Below are positions 4,546 to 9,279 of a stretch of 11,151 nucleotides of DNA, one piece after another. Position numbers and translations under genes: made by a program. The DNA lies in NCBI GenBank assembly GCA_017861415.1, contig JAGFXS010000029.1, forward strand, positions 1 to 11,151, read 5' to 3'. How positions within the stretch are numbered: position 1 is the stretch's first letter; each line of letters begins with the position of its first letter. This stretch comes from Bacillota bacterium. GTDB lineage: Bacteria; Bacillota; Clostridia; Oscillospirales; Oscillospiraceae. Under the pieces are notes generated by a model. The model was given only the letters and a program-made list of their open reading frames with translations, had not been told where the DNA came from and ran no database searches.

Positions 4546-4840
4546 CAAGTTCATAAAGATAAAGGTGTTGACCGGGAACCAGTAACCATGTAAAGTCCCC
4601 TCCAGAGAGCTGCCGGATGGTGTGAGGCAGCGGGGATAGCTTGGTGAATTCCTCCCGCGAGCTGTGCGCTGAAGGCCTCTTGAGGCTGGTAGGATGCACC
4701 GGTTGTGCCCGTCATCGCACTAGGGTATCGCCCTCGGGCCGTACCCAACAAGGCCCTTGTCGCGAGGCAAGGGTAAACTGAGGTGGTACCGCGGATCTGT
4801 CATCCGTCCTCTGTATAACGCAGAGGACGGATGTTTTTTC
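4546..4840 (+). promoter_or_regulatory. T-box riboswitch leader controlling paaK-ACT
   Basis: All main T-box parts are visible. Stem I has AGTA (4581-4584) opposite GAA (4646-4648), flanked by helix ACCA/TGGT above and CGGGA (4573-4577)/TCCCG (4653-4657) below. Its apical part carries AGAGAG and GGATGGTGTGAGG. The T-box sequence AGGTGGTACCGCGG is at 4781-4794. The antiterminator forms as GAGG/CCTC plus GCGGAT/ATCCGT around the bulge TGGTACC, and competes with the terminator at 4801-4839. T-boxes bind a specific tRNA and allow read-through when it is uncharged, so paaK-ACT should be induced by lack of one amino acid. After GAA the sequence is TTCC. The usual register gives UCC (Ser), and one base earlier gives UUC (Phe). 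The base after UGG in the bulge is U, which pairs with an A73 discriminator. That suits tRNA-Phe rather than the typical G73 of tRNA-Ser. Confidence 0.95.
4801..4839 (+). terminator. T-box attenuator terminator
   Basis: This is a perfect 13-bp stem (4801-4813 with 4821-4833) with a 7-base loop TATAACG and six T residues (4834-4839). Its 5' arm overlaps the 3' strand of the antiterminator, as expected for tRNA-controlled attenuation. Confidence 0.95.
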
Positions 4841-7674: not shown

Positions 7675-7701
7675 ACCGTTTTTTCTTTAGTCCATATAAT
7701 A
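7675..7701 (+). promoter_or_regulatory. Sigma-K-like promoter for the SOD-like gene
   Basis: CATATAATA at 7693-7701 fits the sigma-K -10 consensus CATAnnnTA at all fixed positions. AC (7675-7676, in AACC) lies 16 bases upstream as the -35. The same string also contains TATAAT (7695-7700), with only a weak sigma-A -35 TTAACC at 7672. A sigma-A start near 7707 would leave almost no leader ahead of the ribosome binding site. The next gene has the same arrangement with identical spacing. Confidence 0.6.
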
Positions 7702-7720
7702 AGTTATGGAGGTGATACGG

Positions 7721-8230
7721 GTGCTCACCATTCGAGAACTGAATTTTGTTTTACAACAGCCACCCAATGCCTGTGCGGAAATATCTGGAACGATTTCTTA
7801 TCCAAACCTGATCGGCCTTGCTAACTTCTACACCATTAGCAGCGGCGTTTTGCTCTTTGTACGTGTGAAGGGGCTTCCCTTTAGCGCCCAGGTATGTGGC
7901 CCCGCTTTCTTTGGCTTCCATATCCACGAAGGCCTGTCCTGTACCGGCACCAGCGCAAGTCCCTTTGCTGACGTGGGCGGCCATTACAATCCCCACAACT
8001 GCGCCCATGCGGAACATGCAGGCGATCTTCCGCCTCTCCTCAGCAGTCGCGGAGATGCGCTGATGCTTGTCCTAATCAATAGTTTTACAGTTGAAGAAGT
8101 GATTGACCGGACCCTCATCATTCATTCCTCTCCAGTCCCCACAGAGAACCCAGATATATCAGGTCCCGCTATCGCCTGCGGAGTTATTAGCAAGGGCCCC
8201 TGTACCACAAACAGCATTCTATTCAAATAA
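7721..8230 (+). CDS. Cu/Zn superoxide dismutase-like protein, no signal peptide
   Basis: This 169-residue protein of the SodC fold dismutates superoxide if active. The metal ligands all appear present: H67 and H69 (FHIHEG), H88 (GGHYNP), H96, H99 and D102 (HAGDLPP), and H135 (LIIHSSP). C74 and C153 (IACGVI) match the conserved disulfide. Compared with classical enzymes the loop between H88 and H99 is very short, and the active-site Arg three residues before C153 is replaced by Ala150. The chain begins at the first strand of the domain with no signal peptide or lipobox, unlike periplasmic or lipoprotein SodC. An in-frame ATG at 7706 precedes the ribosome binding site. GTG 7721 with GGAGG (7708-7712) 8 bases ahead is the proper start. 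Given the sigma-K-like promoter and the neighbour, a spore-coat location is inferred. Confidence 0.85.
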   Translation: MLTIRELNFVLQQPPNACAEISGTISYPNLIGLANFYTISSGVLLFVRVKGLPFSAQVCGPAFFGFHIHEGLSCTGTSASPFADVGGHYNPHNCAHAEHAGDLPPLLSSRGDALMLVLINSFTVEEVIDRTLIIHSSPVPTENPDISGPAIACGVISKGPCTTNSILFK

Positions 8231-8294
8231 TCCCAGATGGCAAAGCCGACTTCTATTTTTGAATTATTTTCTTCCCTGCCCGTCCTATTCCGGC

Positions 8295-8321
8295 ACCAAT
8301 GCTGTGAATTTTCATAGGATG
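8295..8321 (+). promoter_or_regulatory. Sigma-K-like promoter for the cysteine-rich gene
   Basis: CATAGGATG (8313-8321) matches CATAnnnTA at all but the last base. CACC (8294-8297) supplies the AC -35 with a 16-base gap, the same gap as in front of the SOD-like gene. Predicted transcription from about 8327 leaves a leader of about 40 bases. No sigma-A promoter is evident in 8231-8367. Confidence 0.55.
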
Positions 8322-8367
8322 GATTGGCGACAAAATCCCATTTCTCTGATTTAGGAGGTATCATTAT

Positions 8368-9279
8368 ATGAGCGAAAGGGTTATGCCGGGTCCTGTGTGC
8401 GATAACACCGGCATCCGAGAGGCTGTCTGTATTAGTACTAAGAAAATTTACGATAGCTGTAGGGACAGGGATTGTATTGAAAATCTTCGATTCTATCCCA
8501 CCCACAGCTCCCAGAGTGTCATTGATCGCGCCTTGTCAATCCGCTCCGGAAAGGCTGAGCTACTGAACGTACACATTGATGTAGAGCCCACTGGCTTTAG
8601 CAGAGGTTTCTTCACCGTAGATATCCGGTATTTCTACCGCATCACGGCTGAGGCCTTTGTCGGTGCCGCCCGCCCTGTTGAAATCACAGGCCTTGCCATT
8701 TTCGACAAGCGGGTTATTCTCTTCGGCGGGGAAGGCAGTGCGAAGATTTTCAGCTCTCAGTATGTACTGGATGACATCGATGAACAGAGCTTGAGGCGTA
8801 CCAACATGCCCACCGCCGTTGTCGAAGCAGTGGATCCCATTGTTCTGAGCATGAAGCTGGTAGATCCGGCATCCGACTGTTGCATGCCTTGTCCCCCGCC
8901 CTGCTGCCCACCCTGTTGCGCTGCGACTCCCTTTGATGTCGGCGGCGTTTCCCCCTGTAATAGCGACAGCTTTGACATCCCGCCCAACATCTGCTCCTGC
9001 TTTGGCTCCGACCTCAGCTTTGGCAATGACAGGAAGCGCGTATATCTTACTTTGGGTCAATTCTCCATCATTCGCCTGGAGCGGGATTCTCAGCTCCTGA
9101 TCCCCGTGTATGACTACTGTCTGCCTACCAAGGAGTGCACCGGAACTGGCGGCGCCACAGAGGATGATCCCTGCGAGCTCTTCCGTCAGGTGCAATTCCC
9201 CGTAGATGAATTCTTCCCACCCAGCAGCACCAATGGCACTGACGACACTGTAAACAACTGCTGCTGCCGCCGCTGCTAA
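8368..9279 (+). CDS. Cysteine-rich protein of unknown function, probable spore-surface protein
   Basis: I do not recognise a named family. The 303-residue protein has 21 cysteines arranged in three zones: C11, C21, C31 and C36 at the N terminus (within VCISTKKIYDSCRDRDC); a proline-cysteine cluster C171-C184 (CCMPCPPPCCPPCC) followed by C197, C209 and C211; and C251, C257, C269 and a terminal CCCRRC (298-303). Residues about 45-165 contain no cysteine and look like a folded beta-rich domain (ELLNVHIDVEP, FFTVDIRYFYRI, VILFGGEG). A second cysteine-free stretch (KRVYLTLGQFSIIRLERDSQLLIPV) lies at 223-247. There is no signal peptide or membrane segment. AGGAGG at 8353-8358 lies 9 bases before ATG. 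High Cys, the sigma-K-like promoter and the adjacent SOD-like gene suggest a disulfide-cross-linked coat or exosporium protein. Metal binding by the CPPPCCPPCC cluster is an alternative. Confidence 0.85.
   Translation: MSERVMPGPVCDNTGIREAVCISTKKIYDSCRDRDCIENLRFYPTHSSQSVIDRALSIRSGKAELLNVHIDVEPTGFSRGFFTVDIRYFYRITAEAFVGAARPVEITGLAIFDKRVILFGGEGSAKIFSSQYVLDDIDEQSLRRTNMPTAVVEAVDPIVLSMKLVDPASDCCMPCPPPCCPPCCAATPFDVGGVSPCNSDSFDIPPNICSCFGSDLSFGNDRKRVYLTLGQFSIIRLERDSQLLIPVYDYCLPTKECTGTGGATEDDPCELFRQVQFPVDEFFPPSSTNGTDDTVNNCCCRRC

Follow-up and report, generated by a model that had tools for sequence, protein, structure and literature searches.

Two adjacent plus-strand genes of a gut Clostridia bacterium, one for a Cu/Zn superoxide dismutase (SOD)-like protein and one for a cysteine-rich (Cys-rich) protein, each follow a promoter-like sequence of the sigma-K type, and the locus raises the question of whether they are late sporulation genes and whether they work together. 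The window, by which we mean the whole 11,151-nucleotide stretch that was analyzed, is contig C85 of a 1.27-Mb assembly that is 73% complete; the nearest named loci, as judged by the Cys-rich protein, belong to Evtepia MAGs and Clostridium viride. The SOD-like gene (169 aa) occupies bp 7721-8230 behind the predicted promoter ACC-N15-CATATAAT (bp 7675-7700). Its most likely start is GTG 7721, because a Shine-Dalgarno sequence (GGAGGTG, bp 7708-7714) stands at a spacing suited to this codon and not to ATG 7706, and because near relatives begin with MLTIREL. The Cys-rich gene (303 aa, intact) occupies bp 8368-9279 behind the Shine-Dalgarno sequence AGGAGGT (bp 8353-8359) and the predicted promoter ACC-N15-CATAGGAT (bp 8295-8320). 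All of these features are on the plus strand. Elsewhere in the window, a T-box leader (RF00230, 115.6 bits, bp 4559-4814) precedes a phenylacetate-CoA-ligase-like gene and its ACT-domain partner. The close relatives L002, L007 and L048 keep the gene order Cys-rich gene, rpiB, PHP-domain gene, dnaJ, without a SOD gene.

The two promoters are the only exact matches to ACC-N15-CATANNNT in the window, where 0.29 would be expected and where two or more occurred in 8 of 200 shuffles. The shared geometry described in the earlier note is thus exact at both sites, although the ends that it quoted (7701 and 8321) are one base too long. Matches with one mismatch are not in excess in the window (8 found, 7.2 expected), and across the whole genome the pattern with a spacer of 14-17 is not enriched (120 matches versus 125 for the reversed control). 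As the motif by itself is little proof, the proof lies in its conservation among relatives. The Cys-rich set contained 111 loci with the gene, of which 103 supplied a start and upstream DNA; removal of the window's duplicate and of near-identical regions left 83 upstream regions. CATANNNT is found within 125 bases in all 83 (reverse strand: 12; shuffles: 7.8) and is preceded by ACC at a distance of 14-17 bases in 58 (reverse strand: 0; shuffles: 0.4), with a spacer of 15 in 47 regions and 16 in 10. When AC was counted in place of ACC, under a slightly different redundancy cut, AC-N15-17-CATANNNT was identified in 86 of 87 non-redundant regions (window included). These loci are not fully independent, since most belong to one bacterial family. 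Promoters of sigma-K and sigma-E in C. difficile are described as having a similar -10 element, with AC and ATA, respectively, at -35 (PMC3789822, in the passages available). In the Cys-rich upstream set, CATA is never preceded by ATA at a distance of 14-19 bases.

The Cys-rich protein has 21 cysteines, as previously counted, and in keeping with the unknown function then assigned to it we obtained no match in Pfam or NCBIfam. It has 4371 homologues. Profile comparison ties the family to three wider clostridial groups with probabilities of 99.3, 97.6 and 92.4% (the last of these covering 55 columns only), and members of the third group match the NCBIfam BMQ_0737 family (NF052457) below its cut-off. 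NF052457 itself has no match in the window protein at E ≤ 1 and none in the window genome. Its predicted structure is of low confidence (pLDDT 64.5), with no recognized fold and no trustworthy fold match. In a class sample of 243 Clostridia (250 requested, completeness at least 90%, the window's own genome included), with membership set at E ≤ 1e-30, the family was found in 91 genomes. spoIVA was present in 88 of these (unmatched in three) compared to 95 of the 152 others (Fisher p = 1e-10); in a set of 60 near relatives the difference is slight, spoIVA being present in 43 of 46 carriers and in 10 of 14 non-carriers. We would describe this as a large unnamed clostridial family that appears to be distantly tied, through intermediates, to a spore-coat family. 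Its promoter, its family links and the interruptions described below suggest that the product is probably a spore-surface protein, in support of the location proposed in the earlier note.

In 19 of the 91 genomes, the Cys-rich gene exists only in separate parts (G058, G073, G087, G088, G100, G124, G125, G129, G148, G151, G168, G190, G224, G225, G241, G276, G291, G292 and G298), which lie on one contig in 11 genomes and on different contigs in eight. Split copies in the relatives sample are those of G003 (C-part only), G006, G035, G037 and G058. As a control, which is rough because the spoIVA profile is shorter, two spoIVA matches were seen only in G161 and G288 among 183 spoIVA genomes, those of G288 being two full copies. 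The breaks fall at four places, near codons 33 (site A), 71 (site B), 96 (site C, seen once) and 153 (site D), and all four are empty in the window. Site A (codons 32-33, bp 8461-8466 of the plus strand) is defined by the junctions of G006 (C. viride), G148, G225, G276 and G037; site B (codons 71-72, bp 8578-8583) by those of G129, G292, G276 and G037; and site C (about codons 95-97, bp 8650-8658) by that of G125. Site D (codons 153-154, bp 8824-8829) carries an element in G088, G035, G087, G168, G124, G190, G224, G241, G291, G100, G125, G151 and G073. As the window gene is intact, it requires no excision. The gene of G037 is broken into three parts (L270:457-711, L270:12332-12880 and L271:11031-11663), with the middle one on the opposite strand, an arrangement that suggests a nested insertion with inversion. 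At two loci an N-half runs in frame into an ORF within the element that by eye resembles a HAD hydrolase (L262:2122-3315 and L263:1182-2375).

Serine recombinases accompany most of these interruptions. One was identified in the fetched flanks of 17 of the 19 split genomes, compared to 3 of 131 intact loci with a recombinase anywhere, a control that is rough because flank lengths differ and because the search profile was built from split-locus recombinases. All ten enzymes tested have the Pfam resolvase and recombinase domains, and the compact ones keep what we take to be the catalytic serine motif. In a phylogenetic tree the site-A, site-B and site-D enzymes form three groups (support 100/99, 100/100 and 98/99) comprising nine members plus one beside the G037 middle piece, three members and 11 members, respectively; each group spans several bacterial families. 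CATANNNT is not in excess upstream of the recombinase genes (5 of 24, versus 4 of 24 on the reverse strand). The elements differ greatly in size. That of G124 is complete at about 1,380 bp with a single 282-aa recombinase, while the 13.9-kb insert in the C. viride gene resembles a prophage remnant, with holin, endolysin, regulator and polymerase genes. This insert also carries two collagen-repeat genes with nearly equal N-termini beside the phage-like lysis genes (L258:3210-7127). In the window's own genome sigK is in two pieces (profile positions 3-68 on C77 and 109-225 on C67), each adjoining a different serine recombinase (L313:2033-3956 on C77 and L312:3177-5250 on C67), and may be interrupted by two elements.

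Such split genes could be dead, the elements having destroyed a dispensable gene. That no recombinase lies in the fetched flanks of two of the split genomes, G100 and G125, would fit decay, and the evidence for selection comes from one related group. We consider this reading unlikely for three reasons. First, joining the flanks by script gave, at each of the 23 junctions tested, a continuous reading frame whose protein has the conserved motif at its usual distance (G058, G298 and G003, in which the script located no N-half, were left out). Fourteen of these junctions share 4-13 bases; the other nine share 2-3 bases and have weaker support, the join being the best-scoring of 116-216 candidates. 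Second, in five related genomes both halves of the gene are under strong purifying selection (dN 0-0.12, dS 0.2-2.3), as are the compact recombinases (dN 0.02-0.27, dS 0.6-3.0; 9 of 15 pairs with a computable dS, one further enzyme included), and dN/dS for halves and recombinases ranges from 0 to about 0.11. Third, CATANNNT is kept by 19 of 20 N-halves and the full sigma-K pattern by 16 of 20, although in G148 the pattern is too close to the start to weigh much.

The SOD-like protein is more readily assigned. As the earlier note had recognized, it is a Cu/Zn SOD-like protein (PF00080, 55.5 bits against a cut-off of 28.9) with no export signal visible by eye. Its AlphaFold model (pLDDT 89.8) has the fold of a Cu,Zn SOD, and the best Foldseek match in the PDB is 7b4p (E-value: 1.7e-9), among Cu,Zn SODs. 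For the roles of individual residues we assume seven Cu/Zn ligands (one of them shared), a pair of disulfide cysteines and the active-site Arg143. In an alignment of 70 rows, which holds repeats (the window appears twice), all seven metal-ligand columns and C146 are invariant, and the disulfide cysteines C74 and C153 are kept; in P0122, a near relative, one of the Zn-ligand positions is occupied by Gln. The column equivalent to Arg143 contains 39 Arg and 29 Lys (68 of 70 rows) and two Ala, both of them the window's, and in the nearest relatives (P0122-P0127) this place is taken by Ile or Ser. In Cu/Zn SODs, loss of Arg143 slows the enzyme. A strong role in making hydrogen peroxide is thus doubtful for the window protein, which weakens the earlier idea of the SOD as a peroxide source for cross-linking; judging from these residues, SODs of the window's clade may be poor dismutases that still bind metal.

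Were the two proteins a functional pair, with peroxide from the SOD cross-linking the neighbouring Cys-rich scaffold, their adjacency and common promoter layout in the window would be readily explained, and one near relative probably keeps both genes together (P0002 and P0123, for which the longest contigs are equally long, 114717). SodA of B. subtilis is a Mn enzyme. It has been implicated in coat cross-linking and so provides a precedent (PMC3533761, in the portion available). Elsewhere the two genes part company. The earlier note had suggested looking across Clostridia for conserved adjacency; beyond the window and the one probable relative, none was found in the 36 other class-sample genomes that have both genes (on different contigs in 34, more than 1 Mb apart in two), in the seven such genomes of the relatives sample (about 51 kb apart in G006) or in 80 named Cys-rich loci with flanks of up to 6 kb (L002-L081). 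Co-occurrence is weak as well: of the 91 carriers of the Cys-rich gene, 37 also have a Cu/Zn SOD and 54 do not, compared to 43 SOD carriers among the 152 genomes lacking it (p = 0.05). Arg or Lys is lost, moreover, in exactly the window's SOD clade. In these samples the pairing is thus local and the proposed module unsupported, and we consider a functional pair quite unlikely. G249 has a Cu/Zn SOD gene at a distance of 3.8 kb from the gene of a distant Cys-rich relative (L257:4216-4704 and 8472-9248); behind that relative comes a 175-aa, 15-cysteine protein.

The SOD-like gene might instead be a vegetative oxygen-defence gene driven by sigma-A. A sigma-A-like sequence, TTAACC-17-TATAAT, overlaps its promoter and fits at 10 of 12 positions, and the full sigma-K pattern is missing in 31 of 66 SOD-family upstream regions, 19 of which lack CATANNNT altogether. 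CATANNNT is nonetheless present in the remaining 47 of the 66 (reverse strand: 14; shuffles: 9.5), four of which have ATA 15-18 bases upstream. AC-N15-17-CATANNNT was found in 35 of 66 regions (window included; 34 of 65 other clostridial ones), against one on the reverse strand and a shuffle mean of 1.2 (largest 6). Cu/Zn SOD was also identified in 80 of the 243 class-sample genomes, with spoIVA in 77 of these (unmatched in three) compared to 106 of 163 others (p = 1e-8). Vegetative expression from sigma-A seems to us just as improbable as the functional pair. Taken together, the upstream regions show that both window genes carry promoters of the sigma-K type, and sigma-K would use both. The case is very clear for the Cys-rich gene; for the SOD-like gene it is a trend across its family. 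Of the ACC-N15-CATA spacing that the earlier note proposed to look for in Clostridia, the relaxed form AC-N15-17-CATANNNT is conserved upstream of the Cys-rich family and, more loosely, of the SOD family, and the near-restriction of both to spoIVA genomes agrees with its expectation that they would be absent from non-sporulators. That the two window promoters have equal spacing is partly luck, as the commonest AC spacer is 16 in the Cys-rich family and 17 in the SOD family.

That the two halves of a split Cys-rich gene act as separate polypeptides, with no joining of DNA, would account for the conservation of both halves in the tested group, yet it is the least probable of the readings considered, as the full sigma-K pattern occurs in 0 of 22 C-halves within 130 bases upstream (CATANNNT in three of 22) and the break positions correspond to recombinase clades. 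Excision would account for a sigma-K-type promoter that stands before the N-half only, and for selection acting on the N-half and C-half alike. We thus think it likely that both window genes are late mother-cell genes under sigma-K control that are neighbours by chance, and that split copies of the Cys-rich gene are excised of their elements in the mother cell. The SOD-like protein, of a clostridial kind found almost exclusively in spore formers, probably becomes part of the spore envelope; in the window's clade its catalysis may be weakened, leaving it a mainly metal-binding or structural role. The Cys-rich protein is probably a structural coat or exosporium protein locked by disulfides, as is thought for ExsY, CotY and CsxA. 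Where its gene is split, excision in the mother cell would most likely restore one reading frame behind the sigma-K promoter. With somewhat less assurance, we favour the broader reading that the gene is developmentally spliced: at least three independent serine recombinase lineages would have split it, each at its own codons, in about a fifth of sampled carriers, and it would be made whole only in the mother cell. On this developmental-splicing reading some elements, of 1.4 kb with one recombinase, would in effect be sporulation-tied DNA introns, and few sporulation genes may be interrupted more often than the Cys-rich gene.

In the parts of the open-licence literature that we covered, the Cys-rich family is not named as a target of intervening elements and no Cu/Zn SOD is named as a clostridial spore protein; target genes are ranked in a survey of large serine recombinases (PMC10083194). 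The present analysis would assign a large unannotated clostridial family to the late spore envelope, making its product a likely surface marker for many uncultured gut spore formers, and would place in the probable sigma-K regulon of anaerobes a kind of Cu/Zn SOD that few genomes other than those of spore formers have. The Cys-rich gene becomes a candidate for a new and frequent target of developmental excision by several recombinase lineages, one gene being split in so many genomes of a single sample, and the minimal elements are suited to biochemical study. If this is true, many "pseudogenes" of spore formers may be live genes awaiting splicing.

Several known systems offer points of comparison. 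The window SOD shares its fold, metal ligands and disulfide cysteines with SodC (PF00080) and its paralogue YojM, the latter of which lost its Cu ligands; it differs from them in having no visible export signal, in the loss of the Arg143 equivalent and in its sigma-K-type promoter. BMQ_0737 is located in the outer layers of B. megaterium spores, among the outermost proteins (PMC4656864, in the text available). Distant relatives of the Cys-rich family match its family, NF052457, below the cut-off, whereas the window protein itself is unmatched and is linked to it through intermediates. CsxA of C. sporogenes is a Cys-rich exosporium protein that forms a disulfide-linked lattice (PMC4942563 and PMC7333573, in the sections available). 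Compared by description only, it resembles the window protein in its length of about 300 aa, its cysteine content (25 versus 21) and its proposed place in a disulfide-locked envelope layer. In contrast, csxA has zapA and a U32 peptidase gene as its neighbours on either side and the window gene lies by rpiB; no zapA, U32 peptidase or collagen-repeat gene was found among the scanned window genes.

The closest parallel to the split Cys-rich genes is provided by the skin-type elements. sigK, spsM, gerE, spoVFB and yabG are split by such elements and restored by excision during sporulation (PMC10747680, PMC5595907 and PMC5025042, in the portions available). Excision is known in those systems and is predicted from sequence for the Cys-rich gene, which is also a different target. 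Here three recombinase lineages each prefer codons of their own, the gene can be in as many as three pieces, elements are as small as 1.4 kb and the window copy is empty. What the two have in common is a sporulation gene of the mother cell that is interrupted by a mobile element with a serine recombinase, and the frame of which is restored when the element is removed.
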